NCBI GenBank assembly: GCA_002189035.1
Contig: NEEC01000030.1
Span: 124,001-188,000, forward strand
Origin: Utricularia gibba
Lineage: Eukaryota > Streptophyta > Magnoliopsida > Lamiales > Lentibulariaceae
Reading direction: 5' to 3'
DNA length: 64,000 nt
Both the position numbers and the translations under genes were made by a program. The notes under the pieces were generated by a model, which was given only the letters and a program-made list of their open reading frames with translations, did not search any database and was not told the origin of the DNA. Shown in pieces: positions 3,010 through 58,009 of this stretch. Every line of letters starts with the position of its first letter. Positions within the stretch are counted from its first letter, which is position 1.

Positions 3010-4319
3010 TGTTAAGTGTCATTTTCTTGTTATTTATTAGGTATTATTATGTGTTAATTATGTATTAAGTCACCCAATTAGAAATTATATGATAACTAAT
3101 TGATTTTCCTTAGAAAAATTCTATTTTTTTATTTTGCATATATTTTCTGTCTTTTTCCGTGCTTTTTGACCGAGACATGTCAGGAGATTGTCATGGAGTA
3201 TTGCAGGAGTAGTGCAGGTGGTCAGAGTCTGACTTTTTGTGCCTTGTACACGACTTAGAACAATTGTGGGTGGAAGACTGACATTCGTCAAGGCCCTTGA
3301 CTTACGACATGTCAGAGTCTGCAGCAATAATTGGGCGCTAACTTGCATGCAAAGGAAAGCTGCTGGCGCACGCAAGACAGAAGGAATGATGGGAAAGGAA
3401 CCCAAAGGAGTTAATGCACGTGGGAAGTGATATAAAAGCCACTTGGAGCACTTAGTTTCAGACTTTTGAACATTTTCTCTTGTACTTAAAACTTTTGAGT
3501 TCTTCCTCCCCTCCAATGAGGAAGAACACTAAGCTTCAATTTTCATTTCTATTTTCATGGCCCTTTGTGACTAAAACCCTTTAGTTTTTTGGAGAAGATG
3601 AAGTTTCCTTCCAAGTCTTGAGCAATACACTCGGTTCTTCGCTGAATTCAATTCGGATTCTGCATACTTCCACGCGTATTGTTGCAGTCTTTCTGTAACG
3701 ACTCTTAGTAAAGGTCCATGAGTAGTAGGCCACTCCTCGCGGATTTTGGTGAAGATCAAGGTGAAGAGCACCAACTCTAACCCTGTCAGTTCGAGGGAAG
3801 TAGCAGATTATTTGTGGCCTAGATACCGCGACAGTGGACAAGTTGTGACCTCGGACCTTCCACTGGCCATTGAAAACAGCTAGGCACACGCACGCAATTC
3901 GGTTTTAAAGGCAATCGAAGGCAATCCTCTTGTCTTCCTAATCGTCCAAGGGGGAATCACATGAGGCTATTCCCGTGCCTCCTTGTCAATCAGAGTGTAA
4001 GGGAGAGTAGACTATTCCTTGCTCCTATAACCAGCTATTCGGAAGAAATCAGTGAAAACTGAGGCAAGGATGGACAAATGAAGGAAATGGAATCTTATTC
4101 CCAAGAACTACGTACCGTAGTCAAGGTCCATCACTTAGGTTGTAACTTTTATTTTTTTCATCTTAAAAACCCCCTTTTGCAAAACCATGACATTTTGAGA
4201 AAGTTTCTTACAAACACTTTTCACGAAAAATAACTCCCTGAGATCGATACTTGTACTACGCTTTTTGTGTTTTACATTTTATAAATATTTAAAATTTGTT
4301 GTGGAAACGACACGCAACA
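3010..4319 (+). mobile_element. solo LTR A1 (Athila type), TSD AACAC
   Basis: A 1310-bp LTR that starts TGTTAAGTGTC and ends GACACGCAACA. It is flanked by a perfect 5-bp duplication, AACAC at 3005-3009 and 4320-4324, with no internal region, so it is a solo LTR left by LTR-LTR recombination. It is closely similar along its whole length to 43163-44458. A TATA box lies at about one third of the LTR. Confidence 0.95.
3431..3437 (+). promoter_or_regulatory. TATA box of solo LTR A1
   Basis: TATAAAA in a GC-richer context, followed about 35 bases on by a likely transcription start. The same box is conserved in the sister solo LTR at 43572-43578. Confidence 0.6.
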
Positions 4320-5155: not shown

Positions 5156-6185
5156 TGATAAATGAAAAATTTACACGTCGTAAATGTAAATCTTCCTATC
5201 AAATAAATTTATAACCTAATACACATTCTAGCATAAAACAATTATGAGCATACTGATTAGGGTCGAACACGAAGAGCAGGTGCTTGCTATGTGAAAGTTA
5301 ATGCATGAAATCAGTATCACGTTGGTAAAATTGGTCTTAGCTAGGAATAAGACAGAACTATGATGGAATGCAATAAGGAAAAGCAACAAGTTTTGGGATT
5401 CGGTAGTTTCTGGAATGGAATGGGTGATGCCTTGGGACTCCTAGGGAATGCATGTCTATCACTAAACAAGCTCACATAAATCATAAATCATACAACTAAC
5501 TCACAAGATCTAAGTCTACCCGGATTCTTGTTTTTCCCCCTAATCTTTGGTCTACCTCTAATTAGGGTTGTTAAGTTGGGTTTCACTACTTCCCCTTCCT
5601 GGATCTATCCTGGTTTGTTAAGGAAGTGGTATGACTCATGGTTTATTAGATCTAAGGATTGATTAGCATATTTCTCCCCCTTTCACCCCCAAGGCACCCC
5701 TTATAAGTGCTTAGCCACTCACAACAAAGAAAAGAAAAACATTTTCATAGCATATCCTAAGCAACATTCTGGTTACAAATGCTAAACAACAACGAGCAGT
5801 ATATAGCAGTAGTAGGAAAGACAATTTGTTCACACAGGAAATCCAAATCTAGTCTTAGCTAGGCACAGTAAGTATCAAGAACGAAAATAAATCTCCAAAG
5901 AGAAGCTGCGTTCTTCTGGTTCGTCGCTCCCTTTCCTCTTCTATCCCAGAAAAATTCTCCAGAAACTTGTTCGTGAGTCTCCAAGGGGAGATCTGCCTTC
6001 TCTCTCCAACTTTTTCTGCTTTTGTTCAAAATCTCCCTTTTTTCCTCCTTGAATTTTGTGTGTACCACTTTTCAGACTTTTGGACTCATCTTCTGCCACT
6101 GCACTGTGCATATTCGGCTCCTTGGGATTTTTGTTGCGACCTGCACTACATTACTCGAATAAAACTATTAGAAGGTTGGGACTAA
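5156..6185 (-). mobile_element. family B LTR fragment, minus orientation
   Basis: Reads in reverse as the 3' ~1 kb of the family B LTR, including the (T)TTTATCA terminus at 5156 (TGATAAA on the plus strand) and the conserved block around 5520-5720 that recurs at 33.6-33.9, 44.5-44.7 and 47.1-47.3 kb. The far end is eroded, so the limit near 6185 is approximate and no TSD is found. Confidence 0.7.
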
Positions 6186-6658
6186 ATCGTAGATTCATAA
6201 CTCATAACTCAAATTTTTGATCTCAAATGTTTCATAACTCATAACTCATAAATCTATGAAGTTATTAAAATGAGGACAATAGATATTAGTTCAAGATAGA
6301 ACATGTAGCTTCATAACTCAAATGTTTGATTTAGAGGTAGACCAACAAATCAAAACGAGGACAATAGATATTAGTTCAAGATAGAACCAATAGAATCGGG
6401 TAGACCTAGTTCTATATACTTTGTATGCGGGTAGACCTAATTGCAATGTTGGTGATGATATTGGGGCTATGTTAGTCGAAAACATGAAGAATTCTACATC
6501 TGCTAAAACACTTTGAAGGCACCAACTCCTTGTGATCCACCACGAATTTCACTTTACATTTTGTGTTTGATTTGTATTTTGTGAGGATTAGGAATTATAA
6601 GTTTATTTGATATGAAGATTTCATTTCTTGCAATGATTTTCAGAAATTTTGTTTACCA
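6186..6658 (+). mobile_element. family B LTR 3' fragment, plus orientation
   Basis: Holds the last ~470 bp of a family B LTR, with repeated AGACCTA phrases around 6400-6440, ending GTTTACCA (usual form GTTTATCA). Its left part is scrambled by local duplications of a CATAACTC-rich unit (about 6195-6330). Together with the preceding feature it forms an inverted pair. Confidence 0.65.
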
Positions 6659-7121
6659 CACGCTTTGAAGCAGATAATTAAAGAAGGCTGGAAGATTGAG
6701 AATGGTTTCAGGGGTGGGTATCACCAAGCGCTAGAGACAAAGATCTTGAAACTCTGTCTTGGAACTAAAATCCATGCACACCCGCACATATCCAGTGAGG
6801 TGCATACATGGAAAAAAGACTACTACCTCCTTGTGGATTTTTTTTGCAAGGTCGCGCACCAGTTTCAGTGAGCTAACCAACATCGTAGATGTCGACGAGG
6901 AGATCTGGAAGGAGATTGACCAGCTACCTATCTCCTTATAGATGCATGTACTAAGATACAAAGCGTGGTCATATTACATGGAGTGGCAAGAAAACTTTGG
7001 AAAGGATCGAGCTATCGAATATAATATTATGGGCTTCGTAGGCGCAACCAAGAAGAGAAAATTCATCAAAGAGGCTGGTGAATATGTAGATACTTCTTCA
7101 GATTGTCACCTCGGAGAGTAG
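6659..7121 (+). pseudogene. Myb/SANT-like domain relic (transposon-accessory type)
   Basis: Three short frames together cover a plant Myb/SANT-like domain of the kind found in L10-interacting MYB proteins and in accessory proteins of PIF/Harbinger transposons. Segments: GFRGGYHQALETKI, KIHAHPHISSEVHTWKKDYY (6665-6850), then after a frameshift IVDVDEEIWKEI (to 6941), then YKAWSYYMEWQENFGKDRA (from 6944). Frameshifts and stops make it a pseudogene. I saw no DDE transposase partner nearby. Confidence 0.55.
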
Positions 7122-52900: not shown

Positions 52901-54031
52901 TGTGATAATTGATTTTACTGCAAAACATGTTTTTTATTACTATTGAGTATTGTTTTTAACTACTTTACACTCCAATTTCTCATTATTTTTAATTATTTTT
53001 ATATATTTTACACTAATTTAATCTTTTTGAAAAGAAAGTGTATTTTATGGATTTTTTGGACCTTTTTTAATCAATTTAAAAAGAAATCAATACCTAAAAA
53101 TTTATAGGTTTGATGATACATGAATCTCGATCAAAGGATGAAGATATGATCTAAGATTTATAGATAAGATAAAGATTTTAAGATGATCTTTAAAAATCTA
53201 CATAAAATATTTGAATAGAAGTTCTTATCCAAACCTATCAATCAAGTCCAATATGAAGAATAGAATTTGTTTTCCTATAAATACCCTACTCACTCAATCA
53301 TTAGAGTTCATAACCAATTTTTCTGTGTATTTTTTTCCCTATTTTTGTGTTTAATTTCATGTTAGAATCAAGTATGCACATGTAGATTCTTACAGCTAAG
53401 AATTTATGGTGAAGGCTTACTTGCGCAAGTCCTGCATATGTGACTGTTTTATTATGTTTTTCGACATTTAATTTGAGATTTGTTCTATTTTTTACAATAT
53501 TTTCTTTACCAATGTACTTTTTAGTACCACATAATCCAAAAGGAATATGGAAGAATCTAAGGATAGGCCTCAAACATATTAGAAGAAGAGCTCAATTGGA
53601 CATTGCTGGTAAGACATATTTTATGTAATCAGTATGTGAGGTGTAGGAGATAGATTTGAGTGTGGGGAAAATATAAATTACCATAAGAGGTGAAATAACT
53701 TTAGTATTATGGTTGATTCTATAATCCTGCTAAAACAAGGGACGGTGATATAACGGTTATCGAATAATACTATTTTAGAATAACACCTTCAGAATTTACG
53801 CAAGTAGGTCAGTACCCAAGGTTTATATACACAAGTATAGGTGAGTTTAGAGAAGGGTAGATCCTAGATCCAAACCCACTTTTCATATTATTTTTAAAAC
53901 CAGTCTATTAGTTTGTTTATGGTCATTTTTGAGTCATTGTTTCAAAAGAAAATTCCAAAAACAATTCCTTTTCGATACGGATCTTATTTTATTACTTCAA
54001 CGATTTCTGTACACTTGTAGAATTACGATCA
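52901..54031 (+). mobile_element. complete family E LTR, plus strand
   Basis: 1131 bp, starts TGTGATAATTG and ends ACGATCA. It aligns along its length with the solo LTR split between 15702-16445 and 26355-26745. Promoter block CCTATAAATACCC near 53275. It is followed by a 6-nt spacer and a tRNA-Asp copy rather than by gag leader sequence. Confidence 0.8.
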
Positions 54032-54037
54032 AGCTTT

Positions 54038-54112
54038 TAGTGCCATTGCCGGGGATTGAGCCTGGGTCACCAGCATGATAGATAGGTATACTCACCACTA
54101 TATTACAACAAC
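54038..54112 (-). pseudogene. tRNA-Asp copy fused to the LTR, antisense to it
   Basis: Read on the minus strand, 75 nt align without gaps to a plant tRNA-Asp(GUC): acceptor start GTTGTTG, box A region TATAGTGGTGAGTAT, TGACCCAGG, T-arm CTCAATCCCCGG, and an end GGCACTA where mature tRNA has GGCGCCA. Differences are mostly C-to-T or G-to-A, as expected from decay of methylated DNA. The anticodon reads ATC instead of GTC, and the anticodon stem no longer pairs well, so it is not a functional tRNA gene. The three terminal bases correspond to the CCA tail, which plant nuclear tRNA genes do not encode. Its plus-strand start is exactly where the primer-binding site of the LTR should be. Confidence 0.8.
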
Positions 54113-54734
54113 TTAAAAATTATGCATTTGGGATATAATGGACCCAGAAATTTTCATAATGGGGCATAATGGACTAATTAGTTTTGTAAATGGGCATATT
54201 TGACCTATAAGTTTAGTGAATTGGCATATTTGACCCAAATAGTTTACTGGTTCGATATATTGGACCTGCATAGTTGAACCCTGTTCAATAATATAAAAAG
54301 TATTTTAATAATATATAATTAATTATTAAAATATATAAAAATTACTGTTTTTGATATTTGACCCTAAAGTGAATTGGGGGTGGCCCTCTTTTCCTCTAGC
54401 AAGTGAAGGCAAACTATGAAGAGCTTGGGAGAAATGATTCCCGGACATCCAAAAAGGGGTGAAAATTGGATGTGTTTTTTTTTTTTCTGATTCTGTGCAT
54501 GTTAAAGTTTGTTTTTTTTTTCCTATATAGAGACTAGAAAATAGTAGAAGAAGATTATAGAAGAGTAGTTGCTCTAGATCATCATTCTCTAAAGGTATAG
54601 CTTTTGTGATTTTTTTTCACTTCATTGCATTATTGCATTTATTTCTTGTTTGCCTGATTGCTATTTTTGAACTTTTGTGCAAAATTTCGTTTTTTTTGTG
54701 AATGATAGTTTTCCAAGAGATGCTGAACAATTAT
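54113..54734. other. non-coding flank with degenerate short repeats
   Basis: About 54125-54260 repeats a loose unit around GGCATA(A/T)(T)TGGAC/TTTGACC four to five times. The rest is unrecognised. Confidence 0.4.
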
Positions 54735-55818
54735 TGATAAAAATCCATATCAAATAAATTTATAAGCCATAATCCTCAAAAAATACAAATTAAACACAAA
54801 TTTACAGTGGAATTCGGAGTCGATTACAAGGAGCTTGTGTTTCCTAAGTGTTTCAGTAGATGCATAATTCGGAATAACAGTGGGTCTTAATCTAAACTCA
54901 GACTAGCAGTTGCAAGTAAGTTCAGTAAACAAAATCAGGTTTCAATGTGAAAGGTAACAAGTACTGGTTCTAACTCAAAATAAATCAAGTATCTGAGTTG
55001 CTAAGCTACTTGTTGCCCTCCTTAGGTCTACCCATGGAATGATAGAAACAAGAATTAAGAAACAAACATAAATTATATCATTAACCCTAGACCCACATCA
55101 CCATATTTCATCTTAAGACATCCCTAAAGTTTTAGCTACTCATATATGGAAGATAAAGCATGATATCATTAAGATAAACTGAAGAGAATAGCAAAGACAT
55201 TGTAAAACAATAGTCAAAGTAACGAAATATTCAGCAAACTAAAGATAAAGTAGAGTGTTTTGTTTGTGATCTGCTACAGTTCACTGCCTTAAACAGTAGT
55301 GCTGAATTGGGTTTTTGATGTTGTTCTTCAAGTCTTTGGTCTTCCTTCTGGAGAAATTGCCTTCCTCTTCCTTCTTTCGTATTCGTCGTGTTCGAGTTGG
55401 GGGAGAAACCCCCTCGTGTGTGTGTTGCAAACTGCTGGTTGAACCCCCTTTTGCGACTCGCTCTCCTCCATTTTTTTTCTCTATCTCGCACTTCCCAGAG
55501 CAGGTACAATCTTTGAGAGCTCTGCTGCTCTTGCCCTTGACTTGCAGACTGCCACCGCGACAGTGTACTCATTGCTCCTTGCTGCACGGTGGCTTGCACG
55601 AAATCCTTGACTTTTCCATGATTTTGGGGTTGGTGCTAGACTCAAAATCGGATTAGAACATGGGGTGGGCAAAATCAAAGGATTTAGCCCACTAATACAC
55701 CAAAAATCACATTTTTTCTAATCACATAAAAATACTTAAAATTATAAAATTAACAACTAAACATAATTAAAAATTTGTGATTGTCCTATCCTAAAACCTG
55801 AAAATTTGTGTGCTATCA
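54735..55818 (-). mobile_element. family B solo LTR, TSD ATTAT
   Basis: 1084 bp. Minus strand TGATAGCACACAAATTTTC ... TTTTTATCA. Perfect duplication ATTAT at 54730-54734 and 55819-55823. It defines the ends of family B for the other copies. Confidence 0.92.
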
Positions 55819-55823
55819 ATTAT

Positions 55824-56246
55824 GTTGATCTTTATTATTTATCATTTTGAAGTTACTTTCTTTGAACTTTTTTACCTACTAAACAGAAACTTTACATGGA
55901 TATGTCATGTGTTGCCTATGTGCACTTGAAGAAGATTCTTCAAGATGTTTTAGGGTTGTATATCTCTCTGCAATGTGAATTGGAACAATTTCATGCATAT
56001 AACTAATTGAATACCTAGATAATCCATAATTAATTTAAACTCGTTGTAGTGATATGTGTCTTAACAATTTAAGCTTTCTATCTTCAATTAATGAATGGTA
56101 TGGGTGCCACTAATATAGTTCAAATGAAGCATCATTTGCTCTCTATCTTATTGGAACTAGACCTGCAACTATGTGTTGGCTGCATACATGAATACATGTC
56201 CTCAGATGAATTGTAATAAGCTGCAACCTTGATGTTAGAAATGTAG
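55824..56246. other. unrecognised stretch before the Argonaute fragment
   Basis: Could be an intron of the former Argonaute gene. No upstream AGO exon is readable here. Confidence 0.3.
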
Positions 56247-56536
56247 GTATCAGTGGAGTACCACTGCCATTTCAGTTAGTAAGTATGATAATAAACAATT
56301 GCCTATGTTGGTTGCTTTGCTTAAGATGACTAACTGGGCATGCATGTTATGTAGTGGCTCCTGTTTTTTATGCTCACTTGGCTGTAACCCAGCTAGGTCA
56401 GTGGATGAAGTTTGACCAAAACTCGAAAACATCCTTTGGCCAAGGTGGTGGTTTCAATAGTGCAACTTTCGCTTTGGCTGTTCTTGTGATGCCTCCACTT
56501 GAGAAAAAAGTTAGAAACCCCATGTTCTTATGCTAA
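56247..56536 (+). pseudogene. Argonaute (AGO4 clade) last two exons, 5'-truncated
   Basis: Exon 56247-56278 (YQWSTTAISV), intron with GTAAGT donor and TAG acceptor, exon 56355-56536 ending in a stop. The protein reads ...STTAISV-M-APVFYAHLAV, LGQWMKFDQNSKTS and KVRNPMFLC-stop. This is the end of the Piwi domain and the C-terminal tail of AGO4-clade proteins (STTAISVVAPVCYAHLAA ... MFFC). Splice sites and frame are intact, but upstream exons (catalytic DEDH region) are not found in the window, which is interrupted 430 bp upstream by a solo LTR. AGO4 proteins guide RNA-directed DNA methylation. This fragment alone cannot function. Confidence 0.75.
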
Positions 56537-58009
56537 TCGGAACTAATTCATCATATATAACATATCTTTTTAGAGGTAAATATCATTGATACCCAATTTT
56601 TCTACCCTATCACTTCTCTTCTTCTTGGATTCACCTACTTTGGGGGATAAAGGTGGTTATTTTTGCTAAGATCATTTGCTTGGGAAAATAGAAGCAGAAG
56701 TTAGGGCCACCAAATGAAGCCTAACTCATTTGTTGCTATCATATTTTAGGGCATGGCTTGCTTGGTCTTGCACTACTTGGATTTTTTTTACATTTTAGAA
56801 CATCTAGTTTTATAGCCTTTAGGTGGATTAATCTGTAATATGTTCTTCGACAATGTATTGCATGTTATGAGATTATTAAATCTATCCCCATTATTTATCA
56901 TTTTATATGGATTAGTGTTATTTCTTCTTCAAGATTATGTGCTCTTTTGTATTATGCTATCAATTCTATACATGTGACTTCTGCTCTGCTTTTGATATTG
57001 CAATTCGTGTTCAAGATTTGGCATGGGGCTGATTTAAAACCTTCCACTCGTGAGAGTCTTCATGGGTGACTTAACTAGCTTTTCTTTCACAGTTGTTGCT
57101 CTTTTCTCTTGTTTAGTATTCTAGATAACTTCTTTGTTTCGAAGAACTTCTGCATTTTTATTTTTTGAGATTTTCTTTATCATTACTTCTAGTGTGTGTG
57201 TCTTTTGCATTCAACTCACCTTTGTTAAAATTCCTTTCCAACCTGCACTTTTCACCAGAATCTATTTTGTAAGAACTTTCTTTGCCATGGGCATGGAAGT
57301 TCCTCCTTGGGGTTTGACGAGATCATGGATAATACAGATGGTCACAATGAAGATAAAGGACAGAAGATCAATAAACCTCCATTGATTTCACTTGGGTCAA
57401 TCACTAGATCAAGAGCACTAATGAATTAAGAGGTGGTTAAGGGGCTATGGGTCAATGAACAAATCCATGAGGTATTTGGTATAGAATTCAACCTTCTCAA
57501 AGTGGAACAACTTGAGTAGAGGAGGCCCATCACTCTCAAGTACATTATTACTACTTTTCTTTTGAGAATGCTCAATCCTTCATCTATATAAGAAGGGCTT
57601 CACTCTTGTTTAATACAACTTTGATTGTAATGACTTTTGAGAGCAATGCTATTTCTTTGAGTTCTTGTAGAACTTTAGACTTATCAAGCCTTGCTTGTGG
57701 TGTCTAGTGTGTGGTTTATCACTCCCAATCCCTTCATTGATTTTGTGAGTATGGTACAATTTCATAGTTTGGGTTGCAGGGATTTTCAATCCTTAAGGGC
57801 CAACTTCTTTTTCTTGAAGGATTGCTTCTTTTGAACCAAGATCTAGTTTGTCAATCACTTATTGATTGGAGGGTCATATCAGGGTTTCACATACATTGCC
57901 TTTTTCCTTTTCCTTTAGTTTGCTGCTGGAGCAATGCAACTATCACCCTTGAATATTCTTGAAAAATTGTTGCTATCGGAAGAGCTATCTGCACCACCAT
58001 TTTCCAAGG
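56537..58009. other. mostly non-coding; possible gypsy gag end and LTR-like promoter
   Basis: Around 57380-57430 a frame reads SLGSITRSRALMN, resembling the G(P)(I)TR(S/A)RAK motif near the gag end of plant gypsy elements. TATATAAG at 57585-57592, in a context like plant LTR promoters, follows. I cannot define ends. The rest is unrecognised. Confidence 0.35.

Follow-up and report, generated by a model that had tools for sequence, protein, structure and literature searches.

A tRNA-Asp copy at the end of an LTR

The window, the whole stretch of 64,000 nucleotides of Utricularia gibba DNA that was analysed here, contains a retrotransposon end that is old and decayed. The LTR is followed by a short spacer, after which 75 nt form the complement of mature tRNA-Asp, from the CCA end through nucleotide 1. 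Beyond the tRNA copy lies a sequence called repeat X here. The features are listed below in window positions.

52903..54031, plus strand: LTR (U3-R-U5), TGATAA...ATCA, solo-like, with no PPT or internal region to its left
54032..54037, plus strand: spacer AGCTTT, 6 nt (AGTTTT in the five PBS-bearing relatives)
54038..54112, minus strand: complete tRNA-Asp copy, with nucleotide 1 at 54112 and the CCA end at 54038
54038..54055, plus strand: PBS, 18 nt
54056..54112, minus strand: 57 nt past the PBS (A58 to nucleotide 1), absent from ordinary relatives
54111..54112, no strand assigned: AC that belongs to both the end of the tRNA and repeat X where the two meet on the right (GAC should the G>A immediately ahead of it have arisen by later decay)
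54111..54715, plus strand: repeat X, without the first ~18 nt of its other copies
56013..56783, plus strand: likely continuation of X, which has matches next to X copies at C321, C255 and C142

TGATAA starts the LTR in 24 of 24 near-full-length relatives and is also found at 52903 in the window copy, giving an LTR of 1129 bp (52903–54031). A preliminary description had reported a full LTR of 1131 bp from 52901; the assignment to the family LTR holds, and the start had been placed 2 nt too early. When the genome (100 Mb, 516 contigs) was searched with the LTR, it proved to be repetitive, with at least 42 matches including the window copy, the other copies being 73.7–80% identical; the best 40 of 516 candidates were scored, and the copy numbers are lower bounds. 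The window copy has the TGATAA/ATCA ends, the 6-nt spacer and the tRNA-Asp PBS of family E. A Pfam scan of ten pieces from L034, L035 and L036, which are short, decayed or interrupted copies, found no retroelement domain by which a possible Athila-type Ty3/gypsy affiliation could be recognised. L035 also carries a hAT transposase piece (5927–6871, Pfam Dimer_Tnp_hAT, E 2.1e-23, plus a hAT-like RNase-H); a family E LTR with its PBS lies approximately 1.1 kb upstream of this piece.

The Rfam tRNA model matches 54041–54112 on the minus strand over its full length (model positions 1–71 of 71) with 31.9 bits (gathering 29). Aligned without gaps to the antisense tRNA-Asp gene of L010, the same positions show an identity of 60/72; the next best place in the window reaches 32/72, and the best of 50 shuffled windows reaches 38. 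The identity is 62/75 once the ordinary PBS is used to supply the CCA positions. When the genome was queried with an intact tRNA-Asp gene, the window block was recovered at E 2.9e-17. The covariance-model match and the gene alignment, both of which had been proposed as checks, bear out the preliminary description, in which the 6-nt spacer was followed by a whole antisense tRNA-Asp including the CCA-end position. ARAGORN did not detect a tRNA in the window, as expected, because the copy has decayed; 13 of the 75 positions are changed, so there is neither an intact tRNA fold nor a functional tRNA gene.

In the intact tRNA-Asp gene of L010 (C4:990829-990906), the discriminator base is followed by CTA, which is also how the decayed CCA of the window copy reads. 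We take this as a coincidence, because the adjoining spacer differs.

Leader, flanks and decay of family E copies

The read-through model would have failed if the 75 nt were the ordinary leader of family E, as the preliminary description pointed out. We read 41 other LTR 3′ ends from fetched loci, with at least the listed match C255:41972 left out. A PBS follows the 6-nt spacer in five of the 41. In L034, L035, L036 and L037 (the copy ending at 4046), the match to tRNA-Asp extends for 18 nt with 0–1 mismatch and then gives way to the element's own leader, ATTGTATTCC..., and the minus-strand copy of L037 departs from tRNA-Asp after approximately 12 nt. The window copy has the spacer and PBS of its relatives, followed by a gapless tRNA complement from A58 to nucleotide 1. 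An ordinary family leader is rejected for the 75 nt: the PBS-bearing relatives turn into their own leader, and the tRNA continues beyond the PBS in 0/41 ends. A leader-sequence search of plasmids gave no match and is little informative.

For the flanks, the 24 near-full-length relatives yielded 19 solo LTRs with both sides readable, after three with a PPT, one with a PBS and one clipped by the fetched range were dropped. A 5-bp TSD is present in 18 of these 19 (5/5 in 16 and 4/5 in two), and the remaining one agrees at 3/5. The window copy lacks the 5-bp TSD of an integrase-made solo LTR. The left flank CACTG agrees at 2/5 with AGCTT after the LTR, at 3/5 with TAGTG after the spacer and at 0/5 with TTAAA after the tRNA; the best near-TSD (4/5) requires a 2-nt left shift and an end inside the tRNA. 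The search for a TSD around the copy, suggested earlier, thus found none at any tested right end.

Decay of the tRNA block is mostly C-to-T and G-to-A, as had been noted before: 11 of the 13 changes relative to tRNA-Asp are of this type, and by base the changes fall on 6/24 C, 5/21 G and 2/30 A+T. Private changes in the LTR, scored wherever two other copies have the same letter (all pairs among 24 copies), amount to 30% for C>T, 30% for G>A, 7% for all changes at A, 9% at T and 18.5% overall. With all changes counted, the LTR is altered at approximately 40% of C and 36% of G sites (approximately 37% of C+G) versus 11/45 C+G in the tRNA. Divergence that preceded insertion is contained in the value for the LTR and may explain why it is higher. 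The tRNA block and the LTR are of similar age, which does not imply equality.

Repeat X and the right junction

All 27 of 27 candidates were scored in the genome search with repeat X. In 12 X alignments (11 copies, one of them in two loci), approximately 18 extra nt, GAGATAATTACATATATG with small changes, precede the position at which X starts in the window. The window copy of X is broken near its end, because the other copies have these additional nucleotides. The tRNA runs to 54112 and X starts at 54111, which gives a 2-nt overlap, and the tRNA copy stops at the 5′ end of the mature (processed) tRNA. The alignments place the break in X approximately 18 nt in from its end, with tRNA nucleotide 1 joined to it. 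The terminal letters of X may resemble Mutator-type ends.

The missing end of X was sought to the left of the LTR and was not found there (best ungapped match, 12/21); therefore, sequence was lost or rearranged at this place. An insertion of the LTR within X, with X on both sides, is not supported: the left 100 nt match the first 45 nt of X no better than shuffles do, the fraction of 300 shuffles reaching the score being 0.35, 0.93, 0.99 and 0.95 for the X starts of four copies. The 605 nt to the left of the LTR have no match elsewhere in the genome except for one 72-nt stretch. The right end of X and its TSD were sought in this nested region and were not found.

Several other repeats lie in or beside X. 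A second solo LTR (54735–55818, TGATAAAAATCC...TGCTATCA) is inserted in X, with the 5-bp TSD ATTAT on both sides by eye, and belongs to a high-copy family (37 of 40 listed matches). Another high-copy repeat at approximately 57309–57800, for which most listed matches are 82–91% identical, is nested in X or adjoins it. At L031, an RT_RNaseH_2 domain piece (6718–6987, E 1.3e-16) lies downstream of the C409 copy of X, and a piece that looks gag-like by eye precedes X.

The preliminary description had left open whether the LTR-tRNA product was integrated or captured. Capture is favoured; integration is disfavoured by the absence of a TSD and by the right junction, which lies at tRNA nucleotide 1 in a broken repeat.

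Proposed primer read-through, its rivals and related cases

For LTR elements to be reverse-transcribed, synthesis has to halt where the primer tRNA bears a modified base, and plant tRNA-Asp probably carries m1A58. We consider it probable (roughly 0.78) that the whole primer was copied in plus-strand synthesis and that the product was joined to the broken X by microhomology-assisted end joining. Normally, plus-strand synthesis halts before m1A58, so that the 3′ end of this strand can anneal to the PBS copy; where an HIV-1 primer is unmodified, synthesis continues to the 5′ end of the tRNA, and transfer can make use of the shorter products only (PMC13191261, in the part available, whose primer list does not name tRNA-Asp).

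In a tRNA-Asp-primed LTR retrotransposon, plus-strand strong-stop synthesis would have passed A58, most likely on an under-modified primer, and copied the primer to its 5′ end, yielding U3-R-U5-spacer-tRNA. After strand transfer, 57 nt of the 3′ end would be unpaired with the minus strand, the internal region would not be primed and the molecule would be a dead end; these unpaired nucleotides would account for the missing internal region. Either this product or a full-length cDNA that had kept the copied primer would have been joined at the exact tRNA end to the broken X, by microhomology-assisted end joining at a chromosome break and with no integrase at that end. A 3′ tail in ...GAC would be a good substrate for such joining.

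Strong-stop read-through of the whole primer, as first suggested in the preliminary description, is what we infer from the anatomy. The register of spacer and PBS, the relatives without the extra tRNA sequence, the end at nucleotide 1, the similar decay of tRNA and LTR and the missing TSD all speak for this reading; the end joining and the cause of read-through are inferred as well. The CCA does not prove a mature tRNA template, because the PBS also encodes CCA, and sequence alone does not prove reverse transcription. More tentatively, at somewhat less than even odds, the captured molecule was a one-LTR abortive strong-stop DNA with a complete primer copy, which was never a full element and was caught at a broken transposon end. 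It is quite possible that a full cDNA was captured instead and that LTR–LTR recombination later took out its interior, because 19 of the 24 copies examined are solo LTRs.

The main and serious rival is that the 18-nt PBS of an element recombined, or was repaired by microhomology, with a real tRNA-Asp gene, and that a later break at the tRNA end joined X. The PBS and the tRNA gene have approximately 15–16 nt in common, ten intact tRNA-Asp genes were found in the genome, and the window copy has no TSD. Such an event predicts the 5′ flank of a tRNA gene past nucleotide 1; this gene flank is absent at the junction and X starts there instead, which obliges the rival to assume another break at precisely nucleotide 1. 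None of the ten tRNA-Asp genes has coordinates at an X or LTR place among the matches listed. A copy that came from a gene and was cut back to precisely nucleotide 1 is conceivable; the missing gene flank disfavours the rival, and we regard this history as unlikely.

An end at nucleotide 1 must also be a coincidence if what is seen here is a 5′ LTR, left by a variant element that had a full tRNA copy and an internal region until a deletion ended there by chance. An enlarged PBS region is conceivable, and the absence of a PPT from the left flank fits a 5′ LTR; such a leader was seen at none of the relatives' 41 LTR ends, and we hold this origin to be very improbable. Least credible of all is a tRNA-Asp gene or pseudogene that adjoins the LTR by chance. 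Only the presence of the tRNA-like block speaks for it, whereas the spacer and the PBS end are in register, and the expectation for 11 tRNA-Asp places and 41 LTR ends is approximately 2e-6 (41 x 11 / 2e8). The earlier judgement that a chance tRNA gene at exact PBS spacing is much less likely agrees with these figures.

Further junctions of an LTR with a whole tRNA, which the preliminary description proposed to look for, were sought with tRNA-Asp, tRNA-iMet and tRNA-Lys DNA queries, and no second one was seen; few flanks were read, and the sensitivity for older copies is low. The tRNA-Asp gene query gave 21 genome matches (21/21 candidates scored): ten genes at 93–100%, of which four had their flanks read, the window copy at 85%, and ten at 80–82%, which are probably other tRNAs. 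All five tRNA-iMet matches begin after the CCA positions. Two of the 13 tRNA-Lys matches reach query position 1, and C2:5811109, the one full-length match, has the appearance of an ordinary gene in which a T-run follows a CCA present by chance; the match at C304:170022 covers positions 1–74 at 85%. In a genome search with the Rfam tRNA family, the best 63 of 4707 candidates were all strong tRNAs, a result that is uninformative for decayed copies. The window copy is a single decayed case in the searched sequence.

If primer read-through and capture are the correct reading, this chromosomal fossil shows that germ-line cells of a plant-type host, too, have seen the primer-modification stop fail, and that dead-end products of reverse transcription can be preserved by host end joining. 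The junction of LTR end, spacer and whole antisense tRNA is easily recognised, and its counts in different genomes could serve to document incomplete primer modification. Should the one-LTR abortive intermediate be true, such junctions would be a countable and datable marker of a failed stop in any genome.

Copied tRNAs at the ends of retroviral DNA have been published, and a plant chromosomal case appears to be new within the open-licence PubMed Central literature, in which we recognised no whole-tRNA copy from a plant chromosome or an LTR retrotransposon. A tRNA-Asp PBS is ordinary in plants (6% of surveyed elements in the part of PMC6317226 available). The soybean Diaspora/Calypso elements, of the Athila type of gypsy, likewise have an 18-nt tRNA-Asp PBS a few nt past the LTR, but they are ordinary elements that lack the tRNA beyond the PBS (PMC1142308, in part). 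A tRNA-like sequence associated with an LTR is also found in the Helenus TRIM elements, where it lies inside the LTR and is not PBS-complementary (PMC10886601, in part), whereas the window block is outside the LTR and in PBS register. The full-length strong-stop product 'P1' of HIV-1 on an unmodified primer (PMC13191261, in part) is similarly a plus strand copied to the primer 5′ end and useless for strand transfer; it is a replication intermediate, in contrast to the chromosomal, decayed plant-type LTR retrotransposon described here. Primer-derived sequence also remains at U5 where the junctions of 2-LTR circles contain sequence of the PBS or the primer tRNA (PMC5618025, in part), with PBS-length inserts in the listed samples rather than a whole tRNA. 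A copied tRNA-Gly is kept at the LTR end in an MMLV circle, between the LTRs (Colicelli and Goff 1986, as described in the available part of PMC12220202), and a reverse-transcribed tRNA-Gly lies beside the 3′ end of an HIV-1 provirus (PMC12220202, in part). The MMLV case involves a spurious primer, lacks 4 nt at the tRNA 5′ end and is unintegrated; the HIV-1 case is non-cognate and lacks 5 nt, and its authors propose self-priming and a separate insertion. In contrast to the MMLV circle, the window copy derives from the cognate primer, is complete to nucleotide 1 and is chromosomal, and it differs from the HIV-1 provirus in its PBS register and its cognate tRNA.
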